A DNA stretch of 64,000 bases. Source: Irpex lacteus. Taxonomy: Eukaryota; Basidiomycota; Agaricomycetes; Polyporales; Irpicaceae. A model generated the notes under the pieces. It saw only the letters and a program-made list of their open reading frames with translations. It was not told the origin of the DNA and did not search any database. Positions 1-20,900 of this stretch are shown piece by piece (the stretch's first letter is position 1; each line of letters begins with the position of its first letter). The DNA lies in NCBI GenBank assembly GCA_001986395.2, contig MQVO02000019.1, forward strand, positions 124,001 through 188,000. The letters run 5' to 3'. A program made the position numbers and the translations under genes.

Positions 1-3000
1 ACTCGATAATGATATGATACTCACCTGACGACCCTCGTTCTGTAGCCTTAACTCGATCTCTATGCACACCGTGCGCAGTTCCTACCATCGCGGACGCTGT
101 TCCGGGATGGATCAAAGTCCCGCGAGTAGGGTTCTAGGATTGATAAGTAAGTATTCGTGTTATTATATAATTAAATCCACGTACTTACCTAATAACCCTC
201 GTTCGACAGCCTCGACTACTCACAGATTATGCACGAGACTTGCACCGTCTGCTCAGGAAGTCTTGATCGTCGTGGCGCCGTGCTTGGCTGACGGACGAGC
301 GACGTCTTGTCATCGCGAACGTCGTTTCACGACGGATCGACGCCCAACGAGCAGACTTTCACAGTTCATAAGTAAGTACCCGTGTTATAGAACAATTCAA
401 ATCGTTATACTTACTGGATATCTTGTTTAACAGCTTTGGCGCACGTTCATGGTTCCAGCGAGCGAGGCCTTGCGTCGCGAACGGTTTTACGCAACGCATC
501 GACGTCCGGTGAGCAAGGTTCCACTGTTAACAGGTAAGTATTATCGTCATAGAGTAATTAAGGCCACTGTACTCACCTGATAAGTCTCCTTTGATAGTCG
601 TCACCGCACACGACGCCCACGCGTAAGTTACGTGTTGTTAACTTGAGACATGGGACGCGTTATCGAGAGGCCGTGTACGGCCAGCCAAGCGAGCGACGCC
701 TTGACGTGTTGACGTCGCGAACTCGTTCCGCAACGGATCGACGCCCGACGAGCTGGCTCCTACATCCAATAAGTAAGTACCCGTGGTATAAGACATTGGA
801 AATCGGTTATACTCACCTGATTCTTAACTCTTGTTTGATAGCTGCCACCGTGCACGACGCACACGGACGAGTCTCGCGTCGTTGACTTGAGACGTCGAGC
901 TCGTTAGGATGGTCATACAAGACTATCCGGCGAGTGAGGTTTTGGATCGCGAACGTCGTTCCGTAACGGATCGACGTCTCGCGGTCAAGGCCCTGTGGTC
1001 AATAAGTCAGTATTCGCACTATTATTCAATCAAAACACTTTGCTCACTTGATAACTCTTGTACGATAGGCATCGTGCACGACGCCCATAGAGGAGTCTCG
1101 AGTCGCCAACTTGAGATGTCGAGACTGTAGACATGGTGGATCGACGTCCGACGAGCACGGTCCTGTGATCAACAAGTAAGTATTCGTGTTATAGAAGAAT
1201 CAAGAATACTTTACTCACCTGACATCTGTTGTTTGGTAGCCTTCACCGCGCACCACGGCCGAGTCTCGTCTCTTTAACTTGAGAAGTCGAGTGCGATATC
1301 GAGATGCCGTGTATAGCCACCCAGCGAGCGACGTTTTGGCATCGCGAACGTTGTTCCGCGACGGATCAACGTCCCATGAGCAGGATTCTGTAATTAACAA
1401 ATAGGTATTTGTGTTATCGTACAATTAAAACACTGTACTCACTTAACATCTCTCGTACGATAGCCACCACCGTGCACGACGCCCACAGACGAGTCTCGCG
1501 TCGTTGACTTGAGTGGTCGAGTGCGCTGCGGAATTGCCGTGATGGAGGTCTTGACCGAGAACGTCGTTCCGCAACGGATCGACGTCCGACGAGCAAGGTT
1601 GCGCTGTTAAAAGGTAAGTATTGGCATTATACAGCAATTAAGGCGACAGTACTCACCTGATAAGTCTCGTTTGATAGTCCAAGAACGGTGCCCACAGCCA
1701 ATTTTCACGTTAACGACTCGAGAAATCGAGTCCGTTGACGTAGTTGCAGTGTATAATTGACCGACGAGCGACATGTTACCGTCGCGAACGTCGTTCCGCA
1801 ACGGATCGTCGTCCAGCGAGTGAGGTACTATGGGTAATAAGTAAGTGTTCACGCTATCATGCAATTAAGGCCACTGGCTCACCCGATAACTCTTGTTTAA
1901 CAGCCTCGGCGCACGTTCATAGATCCAGCGAGCGAGGTCTTGACCGAGAACGTCGTTCCTCGACGGATCGACGTCTCGCAAGCACAGTTCCGAGTCTACG
2001 GTTAGCAGGTCAGCATTCGCAATGTCATTCGATTAGAGCACTTTACTAACTTGATAGCTCTCGATTGGTAGTCATCACCACAGACGATGCCCATGGCAAA
2101 GTCTCACGTCGACGAGCCACGTGTTGCCGTCGCGAACGTCGTTCCGCAACGGATCGACGTCCCGCGAGCAGCTCCTACATTTGATAAGTAAGTACCCGTG
2201 TTATAAGACAATCCAAATCGTTTATACTCACCTGTTAACTCTTGTTCTATAGCCTTAAACACATCTTTCGTGCCCGTGCAAGTCTTGCCGCGATGGATCG
2301 ACGCCCGACGACCGACAGCATTTTGTCCTTGCGAACGTCGTTCCGCAACGGATCGACGTCCGGCGAGCAGGGTCCTGTGGTTAGCAGGTAAGTACTCGCG
2401 CTGCAAGCAACTCAATCACACCACGCACCTAATAACTCTCATTTAATAGCCCTCACCGCATCTTCCACCCCACGCACAAGTCTCGCGTCGCCAAGTTGAG
2501 AGGTCGTTCCGCGACGGATCGACGCCCGACGACCGACATCTTGATGTCGTTGAGAAGGTCGTTCCGCAAGGGATCGACGTCCTGCGAGCAACATTCTAAG
2601 ATTCATTAGTAAGTGTTCGCATTATCATATTCAGGCTTTACGCACCTGGTAACTCTCGTTCTATAGTCTCAAACACTTCCTCCCTCTCCGCAAGGCGTGC
2701 ACCGTTAACTTCAGAGGCTGAGACACGACGAATCGCCATCCGACGAGCGACTTGTTGGGCTTCGCAGGTCGTTCCGCAATGAATCTTCGTCCCGCGAGCA
2801 GGGTCCTGTAGTTCAAAGGTAAGTACTCCCTGTGTGAAGCAATTAAATCGCACTACGCACCTGAGAAGTGTTTCCCCCTAGTCTTAGCATCCAAGCCATC
2901 CACGCACACGTCTCCCGCTCGGTAAATCGAGCCATTTATGGCTAGCCGTGCGACGAAGGACTTGTGAAGTTGCGAAGATCGTTCCGCAATAGATCTTCGT

Positions 3001-3430
3001 CCGACGAGCAGGCTTCTCTGGTTTAAAGGTAAGTAGTTGCGTTGCGATGCAATTCGATCACAGTACGCACCTGATAACTCTTGTCCAATAGCCTTGGCAC
3101 GTCCGCCGACCACTTGCACGTCTCGGACTTGATAACTCGAGCGACCCGCGGCTCGTTAGGTCGTTCCGCAACGAATCTTCGTCCGGCGAGCGAGATCCTG
3201 TGTTCAAGGTAAGCACCGATCAAGCTCAAATACGATGTTACTCACCAATTCGCCCAGAACGACTTCAAACGCCTCCACCTGACCGTTCAACGCTGCAAGT
3301 GTACAATGCGCAGCTTCTACTGTACCAGGTGAGCAATATACTCTCCGCACAGCTGGAACGCACTCACCTCATTGTTGACTCTTCAAGGCATGGGGTCTTG
3401 TCGCCCATTTCGGAATCGGTGGCCAGATGC
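1..3430. repeat. Tandem array A of intron-containing repeat units (left edge outside window)
   Basis: About 17 degenerate units of 120-240 bp. Each has an exon-like block of about 100-150 bp with a hairpin-forming core, then an intron-like block of about 60-70 bp. Plus-strand donors (GTAAGT or close variants) lie near 147, 372, 534, 773, 1006, 1176, 1404, 1614, 1841, 2009, 2188, 2388, 2609, 2819, 3029 and 3209. A last unit near 3330 uses GTGAGC. Each donor is followed by CTCACCTGAT-like sequence and an AACAG or GATAG acceptor. The reverse complement of the same block also reads as an intron: GTGAGTAC donor, CTTAC branch-like site, then TAG or CAG 14-18 nt on. Exon blocks are partly open on either strand but do not chain in one frame, so coding status is unresolved. 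The last units (3200-3430) diverge toward the downstream locus. Confidence 0.85.
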
Positions 3431-3738
3431 GAGTAAGTAGAGTCAAGCTGAGCGGGTGATCGAAGTGGTCGCAGTGAGAGAGTGAGAGATGTGATAAGCG
3501 CCTGTTTAATCTCGCGCGTTGATCTGCCTCGTTCAACGACGACGAGGTTATTGAGCAGCTGGCCACTCCGGGACTTGAGGGCAGGTAGTTAGAAATAGAA
3601 AGTGACAGAGTACAAGAATTATTCGAGAGTTGTAAAATGTCCGTAGGCGGGAAACTCTGTCATTCTGAATCGCCAGCAGACGCCCGTCCGATCTGATCAC
3701 TCATTGACGCGTTCACGAGCAGTAGTGACAGTACCCAC

Positions 3739-3985
3739 TCGAAAGCGCTGCCGCGGGCTGGCAGCAGGAATCTTGCTCTCAGAGGTCTCAGTTTGGGAAT
3801 ACTATTCATTTATTTTCATACAAATCCATTGTACAACCGTGACCAAACGACGTACGGGTTTGAGAAGTAACACCTTGTAAACGTGGGAAACTTAGCGTTA
3901 TGTAATCTGTTGCTTAAAAAGTACTAGCTGCGGCTTAGACGCGTACCCTTATCGGTAAAGGAAAGCTTGCTCTGAGAGCAAGAAC
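3739..3985. mobile_element. MITE-like insertion present only in duplication copy A
   Basis: Copy A and copy B align on both sides (CCCAC / TTGTAAGGCGG), but copy A carries 247 extra bases. Inside are 13-bp perfect terminal inverted repeats, CTTGCTCTCAGAG at 3772-3784 and its complement at 3970-3982, which bound 211 bp. The right end can also fold on itself. No reading frame for a transposase is seen. No clear target-site duplication is visible, so a deletion in copy B remains possible. The terminal repeats favour a non-autonomous DNA element. Confidence 0.55.
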
Positions 3986-4720
3986 TTGTAAGGCGGCGTC
4001 ATCGAGTTATCGTTTGACCCAAACTGGCTACGGTAGACACCCACGGTCCGACAAACTCCACGGAATTGCAGCGCGAGTGCTGGCGAGTGGTCTTCGACAC
4101 TTCGTCTTTTGTTCGTCTTCATCTTCCTCGTCGATGTCGACGTCTTCGTGTAAAATTTTACTCCCACTGTTGCAGACGAAGCGGCTACCAAGCTATATGC
4201 AGCCATCGTAAGTCGCCGTCCGCCGCACATCGAACGCCAACGGTGGGAACGCAAGTGAAGGCTTTGGTAAGTGGCTGATGGAATTATACGTCGACTTCTG
4301 ATGCACGCACCGAGGCGCGAGCTGTGCTGCAGGGCAGACCGGGCAGGTATGACCAGATGACCTCGAGAACCCTTCACGAGACCTACTGGCCACGCGGCGG
4401 CGTTGGAGAGAAGACGTGAAGAACGCTGGCGACGATGGCATTGCCGTCGGTTGCATCGTTTATACGCGGTGAATAGGGTGTGCAAGGCGCATATACGGTA
4501 GGTTGGAGCTGACGATTGTTTTCCTTTCGTTTTGCGTACTGAACTGCTGACCATTTGTCGGACGACGTAGCGAAACATCCGTACATTCCTGCTCAGCTCC
4601 ATGGACCGCGCATCCTTGGACGAAGGGCGACAGAGTGCAGCAGTACCCGAACATCAGACATGGACCGTCTATCGAGAATCACGATGCAAGAGGAATTTGG
4701 ATGTGCTGCTCCGCGATTAG
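3986..4720 (+). other. Unidentified spliced locus, copy A (3' end at 4720)
   Basis: Plus-strand splice-like signals (GTAAGTGG near 4270, GTAGGTTGG near 4499 with a GTAG acceptor near 4579) bound blocks of protein-like reading frame. The last block begins RNIRTFLLS, contains EHQTWTVYRESRC and ends NLDVLLRD before TAG at 4718-4720. It stays open in both duplication copies, and several differences between copies are synonymous in this frame. The internal exon chain could not be resolved because alternative frames are also open. No family is recognised. It lies directly upstream of the GH3 promoter, so it could be a small gene or part of a transcript that runs through the array. Confidence 0.35.
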
Positions 4721-4746
4721 GTCAGTCGTACGTTTGGCGCACAGCA

Positions 4747-4754
4747 TATATAAA
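4747..4754 (+). promoter_or_regulatory. TATA box of truncated GH3 copy
   Basis: TATATAAA lies 116 bp upstream of the ATG at 4870 and is identical to the element in front of the intact gene at 17793. Confidence 0.55.
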
Positions 4755-4869
4755 CCGGTCTCCGTACCCCGCACTCCTTTCTCCTCGACGCGTACATCCA
4801 TACCGCCCCCGCTGCAGATCCACCTCAAAAGCCTCGAGAGCGTGTCAAGACGTGTAGGCACCGCCCAAC

Positions 4870-5725
4870 ATGGCTTTTCCTCGCACACTGCGTGCACTAC
4901 TTTTCGTGTTGCCGACCATAGTCAACGCGGCCTCTTCTGACTCTGCGGGAGCCTCAGCAACATCTGCGCTACAGTCCTTGCCGTCCGCCTCGCTCGTGTC
5001 ATCTGCCTCCGTGTTATCCTCTGCAGCACCCAGTGGAAGCTCTGTCTTGTCCTCCGCGTCAATCTCATTGAGCGTTCTATCGTCTGTCTCTACCTCTCTT
5101 TCAGCAAGTACGAGCTCTGCCTTGTCAAGTTCGCCGTCGTCTGTGTCGAGTGCATCAAACTCTGCAAGTTTCTCGACCATCTCAAGCAACGTGACATCGA
5201 GTGCAAGCGGGGCACTCACGTCTTCAGCCGCAAACGCCACTGCTACCGGTAGCCAGAGCTTCAACAGCGGCACGGGCACCGAGACAGGTGAGTCTTCCTT
5301 CTCCACCACGTATCACGCTTTCACCTCAATCACCCTTTCCCGCAGGCCCTATCACAGTCCCCATCACGCCCGTACCCTTCACACCCTTCCCAACCCCCTC
5401 CTCCCCAGTCGGCGTACCCGAGTTCCCTCCCGTGGACCCAGCAAAACCACCTCCGGTGTCTGACGCGCCAGGCTTAGGTGGCCACGTACCGGATTTCAGC
5501 GGTGCATGGGACAGTGCGTATGCACGGGCGAAGAGCGTCTTGAGCCAAGGATGGAGCAACGAGGATAAGGTGGCGTTGACTACTGGTGTGGGCTGGGAGG
5601 GTGGACTGTGTGCAGGATAAGGGGTTCCCGGGACTGTGCTTGGAGGTGCGTGGGATTCGTTTTGTTAGTCGGACGCGGGGGCTTATGTGTTTGCACTGGG
5701 ATAGGACTCTCCGCTGGGTGCTCCC
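4870..5725 (+). pseudogene. Truncated GH3 beta-glucosidase (copy A)
   Basis: This matches the intact gene at 17916 from the start codon through exon 2 and the second intron. Exon 1 is 4870-5287. Intron 1 is 5288-5345. Exon 2 begins at 5346. Signal peptide, Ser-rich stalk and the start of the catalytic domain ([20 protein letters not shown]) are still readable. Near 5611 a 20-nt deletion relative to copy B removes the CVGNIPS segment and shifts the frame. Homology ends a few codons into exon 3 at about 5725, after which unrelated repeats follow. The active-site Asp and the whole C-terminal half are missing, so the locus cannot encode an enzyme. The promoter is retained, so transcription remains possible. 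Confidence 0.9.
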
Positions 5726-5844
5726 TTTCCCTTCCATTTCCTTCGAGAGTCGAGCCCGGCCCCTTACACCCTTCTACATACGGTTTGCCATCCCTCGTGA
5801 GGGATGGCCGTTCTTCTTGCTTCTCCTGTGCTGATACACTTCGC

Positions 5845-6480
5845 AGAGGCCGTGACGAGCGGTGCGCGAACGCGCACGGCGTGGATGCGAAGACTCGCCT
5901 TACGGCGATAGGCAAGCGGTCGAGACGATCTCGAGAAGACGACAGCGGCGACGCAGTGAGGTGTTCACGCGGGATACGAAGAACGTGCAACCGTTCGTTC
6001 AGAACATCGACTGCGAGACGGAGGGTGGAGAGGTGGATTGAGAGGTTCACATGACGGACGAGGATATATGGAAATTGGGAGAGCAGCACGGGTTCAGGTG
6101 AGTACTCGTCTCGTCTCGTTAGTGTTCAATGGCCCCCTCCCTCTCGTCCCTTCCCCTTCTACTGGCCACGCGCACACGGGGCGTGGACGAGAAGACTCAC
6201 CTTACGGCGATGGGGAAGCAGTCGAGACGACGGTTGACGACGAGCTGGCACGCAAGCGGGGTGTTCACGCGAATCCGAAGAACGTGCACCCGTTCGTTTA
6301 CACCACCAACTACGAGATAGAGGGAGGGCTTAGAGATGGATTGGGAGCTTTACATGACGGACGAGGGTACACGATATCTGAGAGAGCAGCACGGGTGTTC
6401 GGTGAGTACTCGTCTCGTTGGTGGTCGATGGCCCCCTTTCCTCTCGCCCCCTCCCCTTCCATCGGCCACGCGCACGCACG
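5845..6480 (+). repeat. Degenerate tandem repeat of about 305 bp, two units plus a fragment
   Basis: Unit 1 (about 5845-6150) and unit 2 (about 6160-6460) share GCGAAGACTCGCCTTACGGC-like sequence, a GAACGTGCACCCGTTCG-like block, GAGAGCAGCACGGGT and a donor-like GGTGAGTACTCGTCTCG. A third unit starts near 6464 and is lost. Short protein-like pieces (NVHPFVYTTNYE, MTDEDIWKLGEQHG) occur but are interrupted. This is probably a duplicated gene fragment of unknown origin that fills the site where the GH3 copy was cut. Confidence 0.6.
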
Positions 6481-7128
6481 GCGTAGTGCACGATCGACGT
6501 CGACCTTCGGTCGTCTGCTCGTCGTGTCTACGTCTGTGCTGCTGCTGTTCCTCTTTTCCTCCCCTCGCACGAACGTCACTACACTACTACACTACGTAGA
6601 TGTAATGTACGTCGTTAACTTGCGTAGCACCAGCAATGTCATGCCGTTTCCCCCCTTACATTGCCCCCAAACCCTCGACCTTCAAGCGTCGTCGCCAGCT
6701 ACTTCAACGAGCAACAAGCAACGGCAGACGCGTGAATACGCTGTTGGTCGTGCGTTGCGTGCTGTGTGCTGCGTGGGCAGCGGTGTGAACGTCGAGCGTT
6801 GAGTTCTCGACGTCGTCCGTTTGCTTGCGAGTCCCTTCGCCTCCCCGTTATGTGGCCCTTCAAAAACAAGGATCATCGCTCGCATCGACGCACCACAAGT
6901 TGCAGGATGTGTTGTCTAGCAGTGTGCATAATGCGAGCGTCGTATGGTCCCAGTTTGACTTCGTCGGTCGGTCTGTTACCCATGGAACTCTGCGCCTCTG
7001 CATAGCACTTACCATTAAGATCACGAGCTTATTACTCATATCGACGCGGTGAAAATGCTTCGTTTAGGTTATACACCACTTAGGCTAACATTCTCAAGCT
7101 CCTACTCGGCCGTATGACGAGGAATGGC
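6481..7128. other. No gene recognised
   Basis: Several overlapping short frames on both strands, none with a family motif or consistent splice structure. A GC-rich block lies before 6800 and AT-richer DNA after it. Confidence 0.5.
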
Positions 7129-8520
7129 ACGGCTACGCCGTGCTCAGGTGTGTGGCCAGCAACACAAATATGCAAATATCTTTTTATTAACGTACGCTAC
7201 GCCTCTAGAACTTATTTTACATGTATCAGCACCTCTACGCAAGTCGGAAACCGCAGCCCGACCGTTGATTCGACGACTTTCGGAATTCCGAGTATGTCGC
7301 CGGATTCATACATGTTCTCATTAATCTTCGAAATCCGATGATCTGAAGCGTGCAATAGGCTCACCATATGGTATATATACGTACCGTATCAAACGTTCCG
7401 TGTATACTGCAAGACTCCGGCCGGTGTTCGATGTTTTGGCTTGGTGGCCACAGAATCAATATTCTGTATAACTCAATGATATCGAAGGATAGCTTCAATT
7501 AAACGTTGTACGTTTCGAGCTAACATGTTCGCTGACCTTATGCAGTAGCTCGTTTGGCCGAGCGTTAGCTGTAGCGACGGCTTCGCCGTCGTCTGCCTGT
7601 GGCCACCCCCACACAAAATCATCGACTGACGCAGCGCATCGTCGTTTGGCTGCGTGCGAATGTATCGCACGTATTCTGTCATGTTAATACACCAATATAT
7701 CATCACTTACCTCTGTTCTGACGACTTTTGGAATTTCGTCCATGATGACCGGTTCATGGACATTTTCATGACCTTGCTCGTATCTGGAATCTAAACGGTT
7801 ATTATTAGTAGTACATATGTGTAGAATGGGTACCTCAAACGCGTTTTGCGATATCGCCGTTTGTTCTCGCATAATTCGACTTTTTGTCATAACCTAAGAA
7901 AAGCGAAATCGCAATCCGCAAATGCGTTTCGTTGTCTATGGTCGATATAACGTTACATAACATTACCCAGCGGGCTAATCACCTGTTTTGAATCATTTTG
8001 AAGCCACCCGACGAGTTTTGCGCCGGGGGGACTGTCAGGGGCCCGTGGCCACACCCACAGAAATCCGCTATTAACTCAACAGCATCACGGCCACGTTGTA
8101 CGAAACTAACGGAGATAAATTAGATACTTTACGTAGATTAGATTATCGCAACGTACCGAGATTCTGTGCGCTTTTCTTGAAATGTTCATTGAGAGCGGTT
8201 CATGGAGATTTTCAGAAAAGTCGTCGTATCAGCTAATAGACCAACACATTAGAACACTGAATACGTACCTTATCGTAATATAAAAGCGCGATGTAGTAGC
8301 CTTACGCGTACGTGCGCAATCTGACATTTTGTCCGGACCTGCCAACATACAAGGATTAAAATTATCCTTGCGTTCCGTCAACAAGCATCAATATAACATC
8401 ACGGAAGACGAATAATAGCACGTACCATTCTCGTATGGAGCTTATACAGTCGTACCGAAGTGTTTACGGTGGCTACGCCGTCTGCTTATTCTTGGCCATC
8501 TCGAGCACCTCAAAGGGCTC
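7129..8520. repeat. Four decayed tandem copies of a roughly 450-bp element
   Basis: A marker pair, a GGC-TTC-GCC or GGC-TAC-GCC hairpin followed by GTGGCCA, recurs near 7129, 7575, 8017 (weak hairpin) and 8469. A second marker, GACGACTTT-GGAATT-like sequence followed by GGTTCATGGA-like sequence, recurs near 7270, 7716 and 8160. Spacing is about 445-455 bp for both. Copies are heavily diverged and AT-rich, with no shared open frame. This looks like an old tandem or nested non-coding element. Confidence 0.6.
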
Positions 8521-11500
8521 ATGCGTGGCTTCTCGACTTTGAGCGACAGCTGGACCCTAAAGCTTAGTTTAAAACACACGTATTACCTGGCATCCAATGC
8601 TTACCTCACCTTCCGCGATGCTTAACAAGGTTCCCTGTAATAGCGCACATGGGATGCGAATGCAGCCGCGGCTCGCATGTTAACTCAGAGGTTCGAGATT
8701 TGAACGTTTGAGTGACGGAGAGAGAGCGCTATCTGGATTCATCGTCGTTTATTAGTTCGTTGTTAGACTCATAAGTGGCCCAGACTAAATACCTTATAAT
8801 CTCACAGTCTTCTTGTTAAAACTTGCACGGCCGTACGTGGGGGTTACTTACTAATAGTAAGCAAATTCTTGAATCAGTACACCTCTTGTCTATGGAGTAC
8901 AAGGTAATACAAACTCACCAACGTTCTTGATAGATAGCAGTAAGCTACTTCACGTGGCATTTAACCTGTTGGTTGCCAAGTGGGCGGGCATAGTCTAGCG
9001 TAATGTGAACTATCAGTAGCAAGTCCAAGTTCAAAACTATATTAATGACGCACATGGTGGGAATGTACGTACTCATCGTCGATGAACGATTGATGCGACA
9101 TCACCTACAAAGCCTAGAATAGACACAGCATCCGGGCATTATGCATGCAGCATGCTGATAACAAAGTCAGACTCTACACTCTCGCGGCAAAGATACTTGA
9201 GAACAGAACTTACATATGTCATCTTGGGAGGTTTTACAAGGGACGGCGGACGGGGTTCTGCACATCATAACCATCTGGGTAAATATCGAAATTCAGTTAC
9301 TATGATAAATGACGAAAGCGAGATAACTTACATATAATCTCCACAGTAGCTTCGGCATACGTTGCCACTTCGCTGCATCACGTACGTACTCTCTACAAGA
9401 GCGTCACATCGTTCTGACGGTACCTGGACAAGATCAGTACGAGAATATAGACTGCAATAGGAAATAGGAATAACTTACTGTTCAGGTTCATAGTAGACCA
9501 CCGAATACTAGTACGACAGTCCCGGGACCCGTATGTTCGTTCAACGTCGAACACGAGAGCAATCGCGGGGGTAATGACTTTAATATAACGCTAGCACTAC
9601 TACAACAATACATGTTTCTAGTCAGCAGGGTACAATATCTTCAATTAACGAAAGCCTGCTCACCAAGCATCATGATGAGACGGAGGCTTCTTGTTGTGAT
9701 CCTGGCCAGTGTGTTAAAGGGTGAGGCGGAGTGAACATAGTGGACATGGGTAAATACGTGCGAGACACACATCTAGAGTGCCATGAGAACAGTGAGCTGG
9801 TATAGAGGCGGAAGAGAGGAGAGAGGGACCAGGATGCTGCGTCTCTGCCTCATCTCCTGCTCCTTTTATACACGAACACGGCAGTCGCATGCCGTTGAAC
9901 ACCTACGCACTTGTGGTCAGCACGGTTGATCAAAATCTAAGAAGGTCAGTAACAAGGCTTCACGGCAGCCGCCACTCACTATGAGGCCTGGAGATGAACA
10001 TACTCAGTCTTGCGAGCAATTCATCGTTTGACTCGTGTCAAGGTACTGCATGAGAACATCACCCCGTTTCCATGTACGTACAATGTGATATCTTCCAGAT
10101 GATATTTTCCGTGACTCGACTTGGGCGCAGATGGCCCAGACGAGTTAGGGTCTCGTCCATGCATCAGTAACGAGGAGGATTCCCTCCTGTCCTGCAATCT
10201 TCCGTGTTCATTGCGGGAAAATCTGAAACAACTGAAGTCACGTAAGTAGAGCGTCTCTCGCTTGGTGCACCCCTGAGCGTGATGCGGATAGCGAAGAGGC
10301 AAGTTGGAACACAGAAGCTTGAAATGCTCACCACTCGGATATACATGACAATCGCATACGACCAAGTTGGACCACTCCGCAACAGTGACACACCATATTA
10401 CATCCCTAGATTTTGAGCGCATTATCCATCAGACACATATCTCATAGCTCCGAGTGGACGCAGGACGGCCGTCGGCCGTTAGCTGAATCTTCTGGCGGCG
10501 AGACGAGCAAATAGCGGTTGTTATCGTTTGCATTGAATGCTTGAGCAATTAGAGTATGCGTAAGGGTTAAAAAATACCTGTAAGTCAGGTATTAAACTGA
10601 TTTCTGTAAGAGTGCCAGGTGAGAGAAGAATGGAGAGAGTCTGTTTTGATAGCACGATGAGGTTCGAGTGAGAGTTGCAGATGGACGAGTAAGCGTTTGA
10701 TTGACTACCATATCGGGAAGTTGATCAGCGTGGTGGCGCAGATTGCGTCTAGATCCACAGACATCTCTGCGCTCTCACCTTGAGTTCTTGACTATGACTT
10801 CGCCCTTGACTTGACCTGTATTCGCTGGCTCAGCTTCAAGATACTCATCACCACTTGCTGCCATTAATACAATTGTGTCTAAGTAATATCTACGAGTACC
10901 CCTACAAATGCCTGATATAGTGCGAATCATTGTCACGGTCATTTGGAGCATCCGGTTTGTCAACAGAGTATCGGAGTCTACAGGTCATGATAACTTCAAT
11001 TGGACATACACTAACCTTAAGAGACACACCACGAGGCTCAAGCGTGAAGCCACACAAGTTGCACATCTCTTGGCACTTAATGACTATCAAGTGAGTAGTG
11101 TTTGCTGCATGTACTCACTACTACGACTCAATCATACTGAAGTAAGTTGCCCGAGTCTAAGATGCAGGTTGCTCAATGGTGTCGACGACAGCAGAGCCAG
11201 CCAACAAGCTCCGACGAACCACAAGCAAGAGTGACATCGCTGTGGTATCCAATCATGAGCCCATCGGCTCTTGAGTAAGTGAGCATCTTGTCATTAGTTG
11301 ATCTCACTTGCCAGTCGGTTGCGCTGCTGCGTGCCCAGTCTCTATTCGGGATTTGGCATATCAGAATCATTCCAGCCGGATTCAGAACGATAGGCCCGTA
11401 AAGAAAAAATCGCAGAGGCTCGGTTCGAGCTGATCACAGGCGGAGGTGGGCGGGACGAAGGAATCGTGATGGCCGCCTCGTTCCTATTCGCTAGGGAGGG

Positions 11501-13099
11501 AGAGAAGAGAGTCGGGTGCGTGTTTCAGCGAAGTCCGACTGTGTGTATGTTTGGCGAAGGGGGCCTATCGTTTTGAATGTGGCTGTCATCTAGATGTTGG
11601 TCAACACGGAGGTGTCCTCGCTAACAGAGGCCCTGGATGTTTGAATGATTTGGGGTGACAGGCTGACAGCTCTGATTTGGTCACCCACAACAGGCCAGAC
11701 ATCCTATTTGAATACATGTTGAGTTGGATCGACTCATCCACATTCCAGACATCACAGGTAAGCGAGAGGCAGCAACCGGCAACTCATGTAAGTGCGCGTC
11801 TGATGTTTCCGACAGAACAAGTTCACTCTAACCTAAGTTATTACTTGACATGAATTTTGTCAGCTGTATACGTGAATTCGAAGGACAACAACTTTCGCGC
11901 TATGAGTCCTCAGGCTACTGTCTCTCATGGACTTAGTTTTTAAGACGGAACCATGTCTCCGGAGGCACATGTAAACAATCTCACTCAATCGGTCACCTCA
12001 TTGCAAACATGCTACACTGAATTCCGCCACTGGCATCCTCGCATAACTAAATAACCCATGAGGCCATGAGGAACTGGCCAGTGAAGCAGGAAAAAATATT
12101 GCTCCGAGTCCATCTATAACATCTGAATTACGCAACATGATTCCGTCTGAAACGTGCTAATGCATATTTCAGGCGAGATCATCTTGCATATCCGGCTGGT
12201 ACAGTGATATTTGTGAGCTGCATGGTAGTTCAGAGACTCACCGTGATTCGGTGGAACAACTGTGTAAGCTAAAGAATGTCACGCAGGGATAGATTTGACA
12301 AGGCAGCATCAAACCGTCCCTGTCAAGACAGTCTTGCATCTTCCAGCCCTCAAAAACTGAAACACGGAAGAAGAAATCTGTGGAATGAAGGTCTGTCAGC
12401 CTCAGCCAATACGTGAATTTACCGCCTACGCGCAATGCTCAGTATGGGGCTCGACCGGTTGCCATTACGGTAGGGTGATGGCAAGATTTGCAACGGCCTT
12501 CGCCCCAGGTTACCAAGATCGGAATGTACCGTTTTTCGTCAGTGTTCTCTTTGCATTCACATTCCGCTCACGCATCCCCCTCGCCACTTACACACACCCT
12601 GCGTGAGCCAGTATCCAACCACATTCGAGTCCTTGCTCCTCCACTATGTCCCACTTGCTGCTCTGACCCCACTTCAGGGCACTCTCACCCTCTCACTCTC
12701 TCGAGCAGTCATATACACGTCTTTGTTCGGCTGACCGCCTGCAGCTTAGCTGGACACGACACGTACCGAACGACTCGAAGAACGTTCGAGTATGTTTTCT
12801 GCTGTCACAACTTATGTGTGCCCCGTAAGTCATGACCAGGTTTGAATTGCTAGACAACGTGCTTACTCGTTTTGATGACCTTCGTAGCTCATATCAAACT
12901 TGGTTGCGGAATTCCAAGTCCTCAGACGTCGCGATGAACAGACAACGTCGCTAAGCGACCTGTTTTGACTCTCCGTCGACATGAAGAAACCCGAAAGCGA
13001 TCGTACATCACCTCTCGAGTCCTCTATACATAGAAGTATGTTCATACGGACACTTATTATTTGACTTTGTACGAGTATTCACCGAAGTATAAAAACGTC
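8521..13099. other. Repeat-derived, gene-poor DNA
   Basis: Only short, unsupported frames on either strand (longest 133 codons at 10021-10422 minus, no recognisable motif). An 8-bp stem hairpin with AATACCTG arms lies at 10573-10593. Pyrimidine-rich DNA occupies about 12,600-12,730. No RNA gene or transposase motif was seen. Confidence 0.5.
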
Positions 13100-16000
13100 G
13101 AAACCCTCGCGCTACGTAACGTGAACAAGGTGAGTCCTTGCATCACGAGGGGATTAATACGGGAGAGCTCACCATGTAACTCTCGTTCCTGTAGCGTTGG
13201 TCGAACTCACTATGTATTGGCGGTGCTTGCGTCGTCGAGTCGAGAATACCAGCTCATGATATCGTGATGTATCTTCGTCTGGCGAGCGACATGCTGGGAT
13301 CGAGGTGAGTACTCGGATTTGCGAGGTAATCGAAAAAGCTAGAGCACTCACTGATATCTTGGTTCTCCAGCCCTGATCCGACCATCAAGCATCAAGAACT
13401 CTCGTGCGACGTACAACAACGTATCACGGTTCAGCGAGCGACGTCGTACTTCTGTCGCGAGCTTCCTTGAACGACATACGACCAGCCACGTCTCCAGAGG
13501 CTGGTACCCATGATGTAGCGACATATCGACGTCTACGGAGCAGAGTCTGGTGGTCTTGGTGTGTACTCGTGTTCGTAGGTGATCCAGTTCCGTGTACTGA
13601 TTTGTATTCTTCGCCTTTTAGCCGTTTGCGAGCCGTATCAAGGCGTCGTGCGCGGAATTGAACACCGAGTTCGCGATATCACGATAGATCGTCTTCTGGC
13701 GAGCGATGTCCTGTCGATTCTTATTATTAAAAAATAAAGAAGAATAAATATAAAGACGTGCCCACGCCCAGCTGTCTGGCGAGCGAGGTCGTCTGGTGTG
13801 GGTGGGTGCTCGCGCTAGCAGGTAGTCTAAAATAATATACTCACCTTATTTTCCTTCTCTCATAGATGTATTCAACTTCCCTTAATGGGGGGAGATGTTC
13901 GTCGTGAATTAAGCCTCGCGGCCGCGGTTCTGTAATGGATAGCCGTCCGGCGCGTAAGGTCTAGACATAAGTAAGTACTCGCGTTGTGGGATAGATAATG
14001 ATACGGTCCTCACCTGATAACTCTCGTTCCGTAGCGTTGACTTAATCCATATGCACGCCATGCACGAGTTTCTGCCATCGCGGACGTCGTTCCACGATCG
14101 ATCAAAGTCCCGCGAGCAGGGTTCTATGATTGGTAAGTAAGTATTTGTGTTCTTATATAATTAAATCCCTGTACTTACCTGATAACCTCGTTCGACAGCC
14201 TCGACTACTCACAGGTTATGCGCCAGACTTGCGCCGTCTGCTTAGAAAGTCTTAGTCCGTACGTAGATGGGCGATGAGCGACGCCTCATTGTCGCGAACG
14301 TCGTTTCACGACGGATCGACGCCCAACGAGCAGACTCTCATAGTTAATAAGTAAGTACCCGTGTTATAGAACAATACAAATCGTCATACTTACTTGATAT
14401 CTCTCGTTTAACAGCTTTGGCGTACGTTCATCGAACGAGGTTTTGACCGGGAACGTCGTTCCGCAATGGATCGACGCCCGACGAGCAGGCCCCTGCATTT
14501 AATAAGTAAGTACCCGTATTATGAGACGATTCAGATCGTTATACTCACCTAATACTTAAACTCTCGTACGATAGCTACCACTGTGCACGACGCCCTCGGC
14601 TAAGTCTCACGTCGAGGACTCGAGAAACCGAGTCCGTCGACGTGGTTTCAGATTATAACTGATCGAAGAGCGACGTCTTCACGTCGTTCCGCAACGGATC
14701 GACTTCCCGCGAGCAAGATTCTATTGTTAAATGGTAAGTATTCGTGTTATCGTGCAATAAAGTGACTGTACTCACCTGATAAGTCTCGTTTAACAGCCTC
14801 GGCGCACGTTCATAGATCCAGCGAGCGAGGTCTTGACCGAGAACGTCGTTCCTCGACGGATCGACGTTCGGCGAGCGAGGTTCTATTGTTAAAAGGTAAG
14901 TATTCGTGTTATCGTACAATTAAACCACTGGACTCACCAGATACATCTCGTACGATAGCCTTCACCGCGCACCACGGCCGAGTCTCGTCTCGTTAACGCG
15001 AGAGGACGAGTGTGCCAGCGAATTTCCGTGACAACCATCCAGCGAGCGAGGTCTTGACGTTGCGAATATCGCTCCGCATTAGATCGACATCCGGCGAACG
15101 AGGTGCTATGGTTAACAAGTAAGTGTTCACATTATAGAGCAATTAAGTCACTTTACTCACCCGATAACTCTCGTACGATAGCCACCACCGTGCACGACGC
15201 CCACAGACGAGTCTCGCCTCGTTAACTTGAGAAATCGGGCGCGTTACCGAAATGCTGTATATGCCATCCACCGAGGGATGTCTTGGGTCGCGAACGTCGT
15301 TTCACGACGTATCGCCGTCCGACGAGCGAGGCACTATGCTTAATAAGTAAGTATTCACTTTATCGTGCAATTAAGTCACTGTACTCACCTGATAGTACCT
15401 CTCGTTTAACAGCCTCGGCTCACTCCCATCGTCCACGCGAACATCGTAGGCTCGAGAAGTCGATCTACCATGTATGGCCGTCCGGCGAGCGAGATCTTGG
15501 GATGCGAACGTCGTTTCACGACGTATCGACGTCCGGCGAGCGAGGTCTTGTGGTTAATAAGTAAGTGTTCGCATTATCGTATAGTCAGATCACTGTACTC
15601 ACCTGATGGTACCTCTCGTTTAACAGCCTCGGCGCACGTTCATAAGCCCAGCGAGCGAGGTCTTGACCGAGAACGTCGTTCCGCAACGGATCGACGTCCG
15701 ACGAGCGAGGTACTAGGATTCATTAGTAAGTGTTCGCATTATCATATCATTCAGTCTTTACGCACCTGTTAACTCTCGTTTAATAGCCCTCACCGCATCT
15801 TCCACCCCACGCACAAGTCTCGCCTCGCCAAGTTGAGAGGTCGTTCCGCGACGGATCGACGCCCGACGACCGACATCTTGATGTCGTTGAGAAGGTCGTT
15901 CCGCAACAAATCTTCGTCCCGCGAGCAGGGTCCTGTGGTTAACAGGTAAGTACCTGCATTGTAATGTAATTCAATCACATTACGCACCTGATAAGTGTTG

Positions 16001-16760
16001 TTCCGTAGTCTTAAACACTTTATCCCTCTCCGCAAGGCGTGCACCGTTAACTTCAGAGGCTGAGACACGACGAATCGCCATCCGACATCCTGATGCCGTT
16101 GGGAAGGTCGTTCCGCAATGGATCTTCGTCCCGCGAGCGAGATCCTATGGTTAACAGGTAAGTACTCGTGTTGCAGAGCAGTTCAATCACATTACGCACC
16201 TGATAAGTGTTTCCCCCTAGTCTTAGCATCCAAGCCATCCACGCACACGTCTCCCGCTCGGTAAATCGAGCCATTTGTGGCTAGCCGTGCGACGAGCGAC
16301 TTGTGAAGTTGTTTGGTCGTTCCGCAATGGATCTTCGTCCGACGAGCAGGCTTCTCTGGTTTAAAGGTAAGTAGTTGCGTTGCGATGCAATTAGATCACA
16401 CCACGCACCTGACAAGCCTCGTTCTATAGTCTTAGCACGCCCGCCGACCACTTGCACGTCTCGGACTTGATAACTCGAGCGACCCGCGGCTCGTTAGGTC
16501 GTTCCGCAACGAATCTTCGTCCAGCGAGCGAGATCATGTGTTCAAGGTAAGCACTGATCAAGCTCAAATACGATGTTACTCACTAATTTGCCCAGAACGA
16601 CTTCAAACGCCTCCACCTCTCCGTTCAACGTTGCAAGTGTACGACTCGGATGCGCTGCTTCTACTGTACCAGGTGAGCAATATACCCTCCTCGCGATTGG
16701 AGCAGACTCACTTCATTCTTAACCCCAGAAGCTGAGAAGTTCAACAAGTCTTGTTGGCCA
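13100..16760. repeat. Tandem array B of intron-containing repeat units
   Basis: Second, more complete copy of the array. Degenerate units start near 13129, 13304, 13556 and 13797. Well-kept units have plus-strand donors near 13971, 14137, 14350, 14505, 14732, 14896, 15119, 15346, 15560, 15725, 15945, 16158, 16367 and 16547, and a last GTGAGC unit near 16672. The best unit has an exon-like block of 103 bp between two intron-like blocks. As in array A, both strands of each intron block carry donor, branch-like and acceptor signals. Units after about 13,990 match array A almost one to one; those before it have no counterpart inside the window. Confidence 0.85.
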
Positions 16761-17076
16761 GCCGGATGAGAGTAAGTAGAGTTAAGCTGAGCGGGTGATC
16801 GAAGTGGTCGAAGTGAGAGAGAGAGAGATGCGATAGGCGCTCTAACGATCCTGCGGGTTGATCTGCCTCGTTCAACGACGACGAGGTTATTGAGTAGCTG
16901 GCCACTCCGGGACTTGAGGGCAGGTAGCATAGAATACCAAGTGACAGAGTACAACAATTAATCGAGAGTTGTGAAATGTCCGTAGGCGGGAAACTCTGTC
17001 AGTTTGAATCGCCAGCAGACGCCCGTCCGATCCGATCACTCATTGACGCGTTCACGAGCAGTAGTGACAGTACCCA

Positions 17077-17800: not shown

Positions 17801-17915
17801 CCGGTCTCCGTACCCCGCACTCCTTTCTCCTCGACGCGTGCATCCATATCGCCCCTGCTGCAGATCCACTTCAAAAGCCTCGGAAGTGTGTCAAGACTTC
17901 TAGGCACCGCCCAAC

Positions 17916-20900
17916 ATGGCCTTTCCTCGCACACTACGTGCACTGCTCTTCGTGTTGCCGACCATAGTCAACGCGGCCTCTTCTGACTTTGCGGGAGCCT
18001 CAGCAACATCTGCGTTACAGTCCTCGCCATCCGCCTCGCTCGTGTCCTCTGCCTCCGTGATATCCTCTGCAGTATCTGGAAGCTCTGTGTTGTCCTCCGC
18101 GTCAATCTCATTGAGCGTTCTATCATCCGTCTCTACCTCTCTTTCAGCAAGTACGAGCTCTGCCTTGTCAAGTTCGCCGTCTGTGTCAGGTGTATCAAGC
18201 TCTGCAAGTTTCCCAACCATCTCAAGCAACGTGACATCGAGTGCAAGCGGGGCACTCACGTCCTCAGCGGCAAACGCCACTGCTACCGGAAGTCAGAGCT
18301 TCAACAGCGGGACGGGCACCGAGACAGGTGAGTCTTCCTTCTCCAACACGCATCACGCTTACACCTCAATCACGCTTCCCCGTAGGCCCTATCACAGTCC
18401 CCATCACGCCCGTCCCCTTCACACCCTTCCCAATCCCCTCCTCCCCAGTCGGCGTACCCGAATTCCCTCCCGTGGACCCAGCAAAACCACCTCCGGTGTC
18501 TGACGCGCCAGGCTTAGGTGGTCACATACCGGATTTCAGCGGTGCGTGGGACAGCGCGTATGCACGGGCGAAGAGCGTCTTGAGTCAGGGATGGAGCAAC
18601 GAGGATAAGGTGGCGTTGACTACTGGTGTGGGGTGGGAGGGTGGATTGTGCGTGGGTAATATACCGAGTGTGCAGGATAAGGGGTTCCCGGGACTGTGCT
18701 TGGAGGTGCGTACGTTCTGGTAGACCAGTAGAACGCAGGGAACTTATGGCCCGGCATAGGACTCCCCGCTGGGCGTTCGAGACGTCGACTTCGTGACTGC
18801 GTTCCCGACGGGGTTGAGTGCTGCTGCGACGTGGAACCGGACGCTCATCCGCACGCGTGGGCTGTTCATGGGCCGCGAGCACAAAGCAAAGGGCGTGAAC
18901 GTCGCGCTGGGGCCCATGATGAACATGGGGTGCGTATCCCAGGTACTTTGAGAGTACGAGTGGTCGCTCATGCACATGCTCGGTTTCAGTCGTATAGCTC
19001 AAGGCGGACGGAACTGGGAAGGGTTCGGCGCGGACCCGTTCTTGAGTGGTGAGAGCGCATATGAGACGATCTTGGGCATGCAGGCGGGAGGTGTGCAGGC
19101 GTGTGCAAAGCATTATATCAACAAGTGCGTTCTCTTATCCCCCTGCTGTATAGCAGAACGAGTAAGTAGGTTTGGATGCTGACGATATCAATGGGGATAC
19201 AGCGAACAGGAGCATAAACGCACGCAAGAGTCCTCGAACGTCGACGACAGGACGCAGCACGAGATATACGCACATCCGTTCTTGAGGAGCGTCATGGCCG
19301 GCGTCGCCAGTGTCATGTGCAGCTACAGTACGTCTCTACGCCCTACTCACTCCTTCCAGCGCAACGTCTCATTGGGATGAATCTAGACCTTATCAATGAT
19401 ACGTACGCGTGCGAGAACGAGAAGATGCTCGACGACGTGATGAAGCGCGAGTTCGGCTTCAGGGGGTACATCATGACCGACTGGAGTGCGCAACATTCAA
19501 CGATGAGCGCTGCCGTCGGGCTCGACGTACGTTCGCCTTCCCTTCTATACCTGTAATTCGCTGGATATCCGTCTGACACACGTCGGTGTAGATGACCATG
19601 CCGGGAGATATCACCTTCAACTCTGGGACGTCGTGGTGGGGCCAGAACCTGACTGACTTTGTCGCAAACGGTACGATTGCGCAGGCGAGGCTTGACGATA
19701 TGGCTACGAGGATCCTCGCATCTTGGTTCTTCCTCGAGCAGGACAGCGACTACCCGGCAGGTAAGCTTCGTCTTTGACGACTAAGACGCCTTATGTATGT
19801 CAATGGTCATCGCAGTCTCTTTCAACGCGTTCAACAACCTCGATGGCAACAACACGCATCTCGACGTCCAGGACGATCACTTCACTGTTGTTCGTGAGAT
19901 TGGAGCTGCTGGTGCCGTACTACTCAAGAACGAACGAAACGCGTTACCGCTCAAGCTCGGCAAGGGCAGTATCAAGAGCATAGCCGTCATTGGTCAGTTT
20001 TTTACTCGTTATGAACATTCATTCAAGTAACTAATCGACCTTCCTGTTTATTGCAGGGAACGACTCTGGCCCTTCTACGTATGGACCAAATGGGTTTGGA
20101 GACCGAGGCGGCGACGACGGTATCCTCGCCATGGGCTGGGGTTCCGGCACCGCCCAGTTCCCCTACCTCATCGACCCACTCTCAGCCATCCAAGCACGCG
20201 CACGCAAAAGCAAGAAGAGCTCCGAACGCGCGATCGTATCGTGGTGGAGGAGCAACTGGGACTTAGCGGGCGCCGCGAGCACCGTAACGGAGCAAGACGT
20301 CGCCATCGTGTTTGTCAACGCTGACTCTGGCGAGGGCTACATCACCGTCGACGGGAACGAGGGCGACAGGAAGAACCTAACGTTGTGGGGGAACGCGGAC
20401 GCGCTGGTTGGTGCTGTCGCTGCTGTGAATAGGAACACGGTCGTCGTGGCGCATTCGGTGGGCCCGGCGATCATCGAGCCGTGGGTCGAGCATCCGAACG
20501 TGACGGCCGTCGTGTGGGCGGGGATTCCTGGCCAGGAGGCGGGGAACTCGATTGCGGACGTGCTGTTTGGTGATGTGAACCCGTCGGGGAGGTTGCCGTA
20601 CACGATTGCGAGGAACGCGAGTGATTATGGTGCACATCTTGTCACTGGAGGGGACGCCGCGGCGATTTTGAGCATTCCGTATACTGAGGGGCTGTTGATT
20701 GACTATCGGTGGTTCGATGCTGTGAGTGAACTATTGGGCTCTCTTGATGGGTGTCGTACTTACATGACGATGATCAGAACAACATCGAGCCTCGCTTCGA
20801 ATTTGGTTTTGGTCTTTCGTACACCACATTCCAGTACTTCAACCTCCGCACCAGTGTCATCTCGCAACCCGACTCTGACTCCAAACCGCTCGAAGCTGCG

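Follow-up and report, generated by a model that had tools for sequence, protein, structure and literature searches.

Candidate non-coding RNA genes of Irpex lacteus with tandem introns that appear spliceable on both strands

Two paralogous arrays of exon-intron units

The window, a stretch of 64,000 nucleotides of the Irpex lacteus genome (contig MQVO02000019.1, positions 124,001 to 188,000), contains 36 exon-intron units in two paralogous arrays, with 17 introns of array A in view and 19 in array B. The upstream thirds of the two arrays are 96% identical, as befits segmental duplicates. Both arrays are located on C51, in the vicinity of ordinary genes and outside any obvious centromere. One reading in the preliminary description, that of a gene or non-coding RNA grown by amplification of exon-intron units, agrees with the arrays in its non-coding form: their layout fits duplication of such units as the mode of growth of a non-coding gene.

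The features are given below. For each intron, the outer limits are followed by the predicted plus and minus introns and their scores (plus/minus), a score of at least 17.5 being the level of true introns.

Array A and its flank
1..3450, no strand assigned, in-window part of array A, 17 introns; the array begins ~0.9 kb upstream of the window
134..209, dual intron, + 147-209, - 188-134, 20.1/21.3
356..433, dual intron, + 372-433, - 414-356 (AAG acceptor), 20.1/17.1
524..597, dual intron, + 534-597, - 576-524, 21.1/20.8
753..841, dual intron, + 773-841, - 816-753, 19.6/20.8
993..1068, intron with weak + donor GTCAGT, + 1006-1068, - 1047-993, 15.1/17.9
1163..1239, dual intron, + 1176-1239, - 1218-1163, 20.0/20.8
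1388..1463, intron with decayed + donor, + 1401-1463, - 1442-1388, 14.4/15.5
1604..1677, dual intron, + 1614-1677, - 1656-1604, 22.3/20.8
1828..1903, dual intron, + 1841-1903, - 1882-1828, 20.3/18.2
1996..2071, dual intron, + 2009-2071, - 2050-1996, 17.5/17.4
2175..2252, dual intron, + 2188-2252, - 2231-2175, 20.1/20.6
2375..2449, dual intron, + 2388-2449, - 2428-2375, 20.6/19.3
2596..2666, dual intron, + 2609-2666, - 2645-2596, 16.9/18.6
2806..2881, dual intron, + 2819-2881, - 2860-2806, 18.9/18.8
3018..3091, dual intron, + 3029-3091, - 3070-3018, 21.8/18.8
3198..3257, dual intron, + 3209-3257, - 3245-3198, 20.4/20.9
3320..3387, dual intron, + 3329-3387, - 3367-3320, 16.9/21.0
3385..3660, minus, pyrimidine-rich, promoter-like flank at the array's 5' end on the minus strand, resembling the block found in the other loci less closely

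Array B, its flank and an exonic motif
13100..16790, no strand assigned, complete array B, 19 introns, segmental duplicate of array A
13112..13194, dual intron, + 13130-13194, - 13172-13112, 22.0/19.6
13294..13370, dual intron, + 13305-13370, - 13351-13294, 21.0/19.4
13559..13621, plus, forward-only intron, reverse score 5.2
13793..13865, dual intron, + 13802-13865, - 13844-13793, 17.3/18.9
13961..14034, dual intron, + 13971-14034, - 14013-13961, 20.1/16.7
14124..14198, dual intron, + 14137-14198, - 14178-14124, 21.2/20.9
14337..14414, intron, minus weak (GAG acceptor), + 14351-14414, - 14393-14337, 20.1/14.6
14493..14574, dual intron, + 14506-14574, - 14548-14493, 19.6/21.2
14721..14796, dual intron, + 14734-14796, - 14775-14721, 22.1/20.6
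14883..14958, dual intron, + 14896-14958, - 14937-14883, 22.3/20.2
15106..15181, dual intron, + 15119-15181, - 15160-15106, 19.6/20.2
15334..15412, dual intron, + 15347-15412, - 15388-15334, 20.1/20.6
15547..15626, dual intron, + 15561-15626, - 15602-15547 (AAG acceptor), 19.8/18.8
15664..15715, minus, one example of the exonic motif, in minus sense GCTCGCCGGACGNCGATCCRTYGYGGAACGAC
15713..15786, dual intron, + 15726-15786, - 15765-15713, 19.2/18.6
15933..16008, dual intron, + 15946-16008, - 15987-15933, 20.6/18.8
16145..16220, dual intron, + 16158-16220, - 16199-16145, 20.6/18.6
16356..16429, dual intron, + 16367-16429, - 16408-16356, 22.7/18.8
16515..16595, intron, minus weak (distant AAG), + 16547-16595, - 16583-16515, 20.4/13.9
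16664..16728, dual intron, + 16673-16728, - 16711-16664, 18.9/19.5
16725..17000, minus, promoter-like flank at the minus-strand 5' end, the same flank as in array A

Splice signals on the two strands

Each intron stretch holds a plus-strand 5' site, branch and acceptor together with a slightly offset minus-strand set. In arrays A and B, the minus intron mostly starts ~20 nt inside the 3' end of the plus intron and mostly runs upstream past the 5' end of the plus intron by ~10-15 nt. The forward introns are 49-69 nt long, and the distance from the forward donor to the reverse donor falls short of the core length of 60-70 bp given previously.

The scores were compared in 11 arrays comprising 112 introns, namely the 36 units of arrays A and B and 76 units of nine other loci, the control being 29 predicted introns in 12 ab initio chains of putative protein genes within the window. 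Under one intron model, 78 of the 112 array introns score at least 17.5 on both strands, compared to 3 of the 29 control introns. As the remainder consists of 20 reverse-only introns, 11 forward-only introns and 3 that are neither, dual use is not universal. The reverse-score medians of the individual arrays are 18.9-21.2, whereas the antisense of the control introns has a median of 13.8 (quartiles 11.7-14.9). For arrays A and B together the reverse median is 19.1, and Markov shuffles give ~10-12 with 95th percentiles of 17.4-18.0. The forward medians are 18.0-20.4 in 10 of the 11 arrays (14.8 in C18b, which has two units), and that of the control introns is 19.3; the forward scores of the outside units are biased upward, because we picked these units from their forward donors, and degenerate units are not included. 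Judging by score, the donor, branch and acceptor resemble those of host U2-type introns on the minus strand in all 11 arrays and on the plus strand in 10 of them. The units are not independent, as they share common descent, and independence is strongest between loci. An unguided scan found 26 dual-strand pairs in the 7.25 kb of the arrays, whereas the remaining 56.75 kb of the window, about eight times as much DNA, yielded 8. The splice signals previously noted on both strands are real, and the observation is stronger than claimed, the window having 36 units and the signals being conserved in 11 arrays.

Individual sites tell a similar story. The forward donors of arrays A and B have GT in 35 of 36 units and G at +5 in all 36, while the AG count of the forward acceptors (36/36) is circular because the acceptors were placed on AG. 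The reverse 5' sites are mostly CAG/GTGAGT or CAG/GTGCGT. A reverse TAG or CAG following a branch-like site had also been described, and 32 of 36 units do have such a [CT]AG ending 9-18 nt past the reverse branch (54/76 in the nine other loci, 8/29 in the control); where it is absent from its usual place 13, 12 of the 16 units concerned carry one elsewhere within the span searched. YAG ranks first of 96 patterns at the place of the reverse acceptor in both unit sets. With rigid anchoring, the reverse acceptor does not stand out (0.83, 0.70 and 0.28 bits per column), but it does if its position is allowed to shift by a few bases. It weighs against the two-strand reading that in the outside loci the forward acceptor ranks only fourth of 96 in a wide search span (60/76, with C-rich patterns reaching up to 62) and that 9 of 19 control branch sites also have an A making GTNAGT on the opposite strand. 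The trivial likeness of GTNAG to CTNAC is common to the controls and does not explain the signals on both strands. The refuting condition named previously, a drift of the splice bases as fast as that of their neighbors, was not borne out: the information content is 1.06-2.00 bits at donor positions 0 to +5 in the units of arrays A and B, compared to mostly less than 1.0 bits at neighboring exon positions. Hence, selection very probably acts on the splice signals of both strands.

An introner-like family frozen in tandem, that is, a mobile intron able to splice in whichever orientation it lands thanks to its mirrored ends, would need such dual spliceability, and fungal introner-like elements and stwintrons are described as symmetrical (PMC8469720). 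However, the terminal inverted repeats proposed initially are absent beyond the splice signals themselves, as the inner self-complementarity is 0.269 compared to 0.267 after shuffling (31 of 36 units were measurable), and the repeated unit comprises exon and intron together. In a core pattern search, at least 18 of at least 24 matches fell in array loci, the other 6 being at the 3-mismatch limit, compared to 3 matches in the control. In a second search, all 12 matches listed were in arrays or in the C296:884k fragment, and in a third all 3 listed were in C51. Among the matches listed, the cores and the exonic motif are confined to roughly twelve array loci plus a single fragment, and these searches listed no lone cores in ordinary genes. 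An introner origin is for this reason not supported, and we regard it as the least probable of the alternatives.

Exonic motif and coding potential

The exonic motif pattern has 97 matches genome-wide, of which 25 are in the C51 arrays. The earlier statement that neither strand gives a chained open frame holds, as the best chain in array B is 464 nt in the forward and 605 nt in the reverse direction. Pfam gave no match above the cut-off among six translations. A protein-coding array on either strand was rejected as the main reading after the chain search, a frame-by-frame analysis and the Pfam comparison.

A decayed protein-coding gene with repeated minus-strand exons encoding the peptide LAGRRSIAERR deserves separate consideration. 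Several minus exons are open in this frame. Among six frames tested, the amino-acid identity of the motif in this one is higher than in column-shuffles, of which 2 in 300 are as high, and because of this identity a protein-coding reading is retained at low odds. The motif frame, however, has 24 stops in 1143 codons over 23 exons, which is not below the neighboring frame (21 in 1142), and 8 in-frame stops occur among 85 motif copies. In addition, the exon phases fail to chain, and two motif copies 50 nt apart are in different frames. A decayed gene is thus very unlikely. No conserved reading frame was found, as expected of a non-coding RNA gene, with the amino-acid identity of the motif being a weak hint to the contrary, and we hold with considerable confidence that the arrays are non-coding. 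A point against our reading is that the three minus frames pooled have 82 stops in 3422 codons, fewer than composition would lead one to expect (0.024 compared to 0.040).

A hairpin in the exonic motif was considered and rejected. Single copies fold and some changes seemed compensatory, but RNAalifold gave 0 pairs in 30 copies and, in 86 copies, only a weak helix of 4 pairs with a covariation term of -0.35, and no covarying pairs were found. Base-pair tables of the motif showed the loop pair to be uncoupled. An early hint of strand, namely that A-C pairs outnumbered G-U pairs when the motif was read forward, was dropped together with the hairpin. No Rfam family scored above threshold within the window, and no tRNA was found in the known-RNA search. 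The motif may be the functional element that the RNA repeats.

Direction of transcription and comparison with known systems

A 23-base element in the flank occurs at five sites in the genome (control, 0), always at the end of an array that is 5' on the minus strand, and is surrounded by a longer conserved block. No block common across families was seen at the opposite array end. This conserved flank, being at the 3' end as seen from the plus strand, suggests that the minus strand is probably the main one. The first intron from the minus 5' end scores 16.9 forward and 19.2 reverse in C295 and 16.2 and 19.0 in C221; by eye, it is also better in reverse in C187 and C67. On the other hand, the arrays of C221 and C307 carry at their 5' end on the plus strand an intron that by eye is plus-only, a finding that fits plus transcription and not a purely minus gene. 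A TATA-like box ahead of the first plus intron of array B is lost in array A (TATAAAAA versus TACAAAAA) and, as it is unconserved, we do not claim a plus promoter.

The promoter-like block at a single end would also suit a gene in which transcription and splicing are limited to the minus strand, with the plus signals being by-products of an unusually stereotyped minus intron and shared descent. The excess of reverse-only over forward-only units and the modest enrichment of the forward acceptor outside the window point the same way. Nevertheless, the forward medians equal that of true introns and not that of their antisense, the forward GT is retained in nearly every unit of the window, and even loci without alignable sequence retain the forward donor, branch and YAG. 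We therefore consider a one-strand gene rather unlikely, although it is the strongest of the alternatives.

We propose instead that the arrays constitute a family of non-coding RNA genes with multiple exons, transcribed mainly from the minus strand and enlarged by duplication of exon-intron units, whose introns are kept spliceable in both directions; we give this reading as a whole a probability of about 0.5. Spliceability both ways would be most simply explained by transcription of both strands, which we slightly favor, with selection preserving the splicing of both RNAs. As the most concrete guess at their role, the arrays might yield spliced RNAs in sense and antisense pairs that could feed RNAi, but a link to RNAi is doubtful. 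More generally, the arrays may tentatively represent spliceosomal introns selected for both-strand splicing in convergently transcribed non-coding arrays, with sense and antisense multi-exon RNAs whose exons are offset.

Selection is usually taken to act on the splice signals of one strand, and strand is often deduced from such signals. As far as the signals go, RNA from either direction could be spliced in the arrays, and the adjoining ordinary introns differ in this respect. If true, introns usable both ways would break strand inference in annotation, would allow the question of why antisense RNA gets spliced (export, protection from early termination, RNAi) to be studied in a natural system, and would show long non-coding RNA genes built by duplication of exon-intron units.

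FIRRE, XIST and the snoRNA host genes are repeat-bearing multi-exon lncRNA genes, and they resemble the arrays in their tandem exon-intron units and in the exonic motif that recurs along a long, spliced non-coding RNA. To our knowledge, dual-strand introns are not known in genes of this type, and searches of the open-licence literature aimed at introns that splice from both strands or regardless of orientation gave no report of such a class.

Introners, as described in PMC9860276 and PMC7789003, are repeated similar introns, as are those of the arrays, and some families have inverted ends and insert in either orientation. However, introners are scattered in genes, whereas the array cores form part of non-coding loci built of tandem exon-intron units and are without the terminal inverted repeats of those families. 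The stwintrons reported from Hypoxylaceae (PMC8469720) are likewise fungal introns similar to their own reverse complement, but they owe their internal symmetry to inverted repeats of 45-55 nt, whereas the array introns mirror splice signals only; no nested intron, the stwintron feature, was seen in them.

The heterochromatic repeats of fission yeast, as presented in PMC11696164, are also repetitive non-coding loci with multiple introns. Both of their strands are transcribed, as would be those of our arrays, and their cryptic introns are required for siRNAs. By analogy with these repeats and with the stalled-spliceosome route of Cryptococcus, the arrays could be RNAi or heterochromatin loci in which introns recruit the spliceosome, and thereby RNAi, to both transcripts. 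The genome encodes RdRP and Piwi families, and the repeats are present at many loci, in keeping with this possibility. Given the position of the C51 arrays beside ordinary genes, it appears quite improbable; moreover, the cryptic introns of fission yeast are spliced inefficiently and mainly on one strand, whereas the signals of the arrays are near consensus on both.

Two tandem arrays and their introns

The window makes up 64 kb of the 44.3 Mb assembly (317 contigs) that was searched. One protein encoded in it matches best to Irpex rosettiformis (68% identity) and Irpex lacteus (62%), so a phlebioid polypore is the probable host. Two tandem arrays of exon-intron units lie in the window as follows.

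Array A: window 1-3450, starting ~0.9 kb upstream of the window; both-strand introns, 17 introns placed
Array B: window about 13100-16790; both-strand introns, 19 introns placed

The arrays are segmental duplicates with 96% identity in their upstream part. Beyond it, nearly identical segments are interspersed with strongly diverged ones and entire units have been gained or lost, a pattern that unequal exchange or gene conversion would be expected to leave. The same duplication includes the beginning of a secreted protein gene, found twice (4858-6500 and 17904-19100), which we take to resemble a beta-glucosidase; the first copy contains a 299-base tandem repeat (5878-6475). An extra plus-strand intron-like stretch (GTAAGTCATG...CTTCGTAG) is found upstream of array B at 12826-12888 and also in the flank of A, and given this stretch the true array starts may precede the limits drawn here.

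The donor matrix of our intron score was trained on 29 introns from 12 protein chains predicted within the window; the branch was scored against yUnAy and the acceptor against YAG. Median scores in the window arrays were 20.1 forward (plus strand) and 19.1 reverse (minus strand), compared with 19.3 and 13.8 for control introns of predicted protein genes; Markov shuffles scored 9.7-12.3, with 95th percentiles of 17.4-18.0. At nine loci outside the window the medians were 19.9 and 20.4 (76 units, which we picked from forward donors). The splice signals on both strands noted in the preliminary description are thus borne out: 78 of 112 array introns (A 11/17, B 14/19, others 53/76) scored at least 17.5 both ways, versus 3/29 controls when all were scored with the same geometry. 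The remaining array introns were reverse-only (20), forward-only (11) or neither (3). A dual-strand intron pair also occurs at 8857-8940, in a non-coding stretch between A and B, and is one of 8 such pairs outside the arrays.

Mirroring, inverted repeats and the third signal

GTNAG is the reverse complement of CTNAC, so any intron casts shadow signals on the opposite strand. The controls show this donor/branch shadow, yet the third signal, a reverse acceptor, is missing there; hence the dual signals of the arrays go beyond the usual mirroring. A reverse [CT]AG ending 9-18 nt past the reverse branch was present in 32/36 window units, 54/76 other units and 8/29 controls, and it ranked 1 of 96 patterns in the window and outside units separately. 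On contigs C67, C187, C295 and C307, distinct words recur for the two roles, with CTGAC or CTAAC as the branch on the plus strand and AAG|GTACGT as the 5' site on the minus strand. Weighing the other way, enrichment of the forward acceptor was less clear at the outside loci (60/76, rank 4), and 9/19 control branches likewise read GTNAGT on the opposite strand.

The terminal inverted repeats proposed earlier did not hold up, as core self-complementarity outside the seven end bases was 0.269 against 0.267 in shuffled sequence (31/36 units). Genome searches with single cores had array loci and one fragment among the matches listed; 6/24 single-core matches fell elsewhere, all at the mismatch limit, and the control gave 3.

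A dispersed family

A short exonic motif, read in the minus sense, had 97 matches genome-wide (22-base pattern, up to 2 mismatches) and the control pattern 0.

Exonic motif matches by contig (C51 carries A and B)
C51: 25
C221: 18
C257: 12
C67: 10
C187: 8
C295: 7
C307: 7
C215: 4
C296: 3
C18: 3

Judged by sequence, the motif-bearing loci on other contigs are arrays of the same kind as A and B. C215 looks nearly copied from C296, and one C221 array likewise from C295 (by eye, about 1.4 kb); these pairs are probably allelic contigs, and the counts omit C215 and the C221 copy resembling C295. A long inverted repeat at C215 (L012 1960-2500) is missing from the near-identical C296 locus. C296:884k is a broken array fragment, a single unit with its second piece inverted (L013 3700-4400), beside presumably retrotransposon-like sequence. 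At C257 (L050 2700-4700) the motif occurs a dozen or so times with few intervening intron cores, so it can multiply without introns.

Strand, coding potential and possible function

A 23-base element occurs in five exact or near-exact copies, all on the plus 3' side of arrays (C67, C221 twice, C257, C295), and at no other place in the genome. The surrounding region is alike in C295, C221, C67, C187 and C257, and weakly so in C51; the stretch that follows in the minus sense is pyrimidine-rich and, in our reading, resembles fungal promoters. The plus 5' end shows no block common to the families; the likeness of C295, C221 and C67 at that end is due to duplication. Counting from the minus 5' end, the first intron of C295 and that of C221 score higher in reverse than forward, whereas a plus-only intron is seen by eye at the plus 5' end of C221 and C307. 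We infer that the gene is read from the minus strand and that the plus strand is transcribed to some extent.

The absence of a chained open frame, also noted earlier, was confirmed: the longest chain in array B reaches 464 nt on the plus strand and 605 nt on the minus strand. After 7 of the 30 given minus exons were dropped for lacking the motif, the motif frame had 24 stops in 1143 codons over the other 23 (neighbour frames, 37 and 21). One of six motif frames shows some amino-acid conservation, at a level reached by 2/300 shuffles; in that frame the 85 copies contain 8 stops. Covariation in the exonic motif is absent or weak. The predicted array RNA is probably non-coding and not clearly structured.

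Minus-strand transcription would yield a long RNA with around 10 copies of one motif in its exons, and plus-strand transcription an antisense RNA of the same locus. Each would be spliced separately via its own sites, leaving overlapping exons with offset junctions. Three Piwi-family matches of equal score (C66:14130, 26307, 33046) form a tandem Argonaute-like cluster on one contig. With both RdRP and Piwi families encoded in the genome, double-stranded RNA from the arrays could in principle be put to use.
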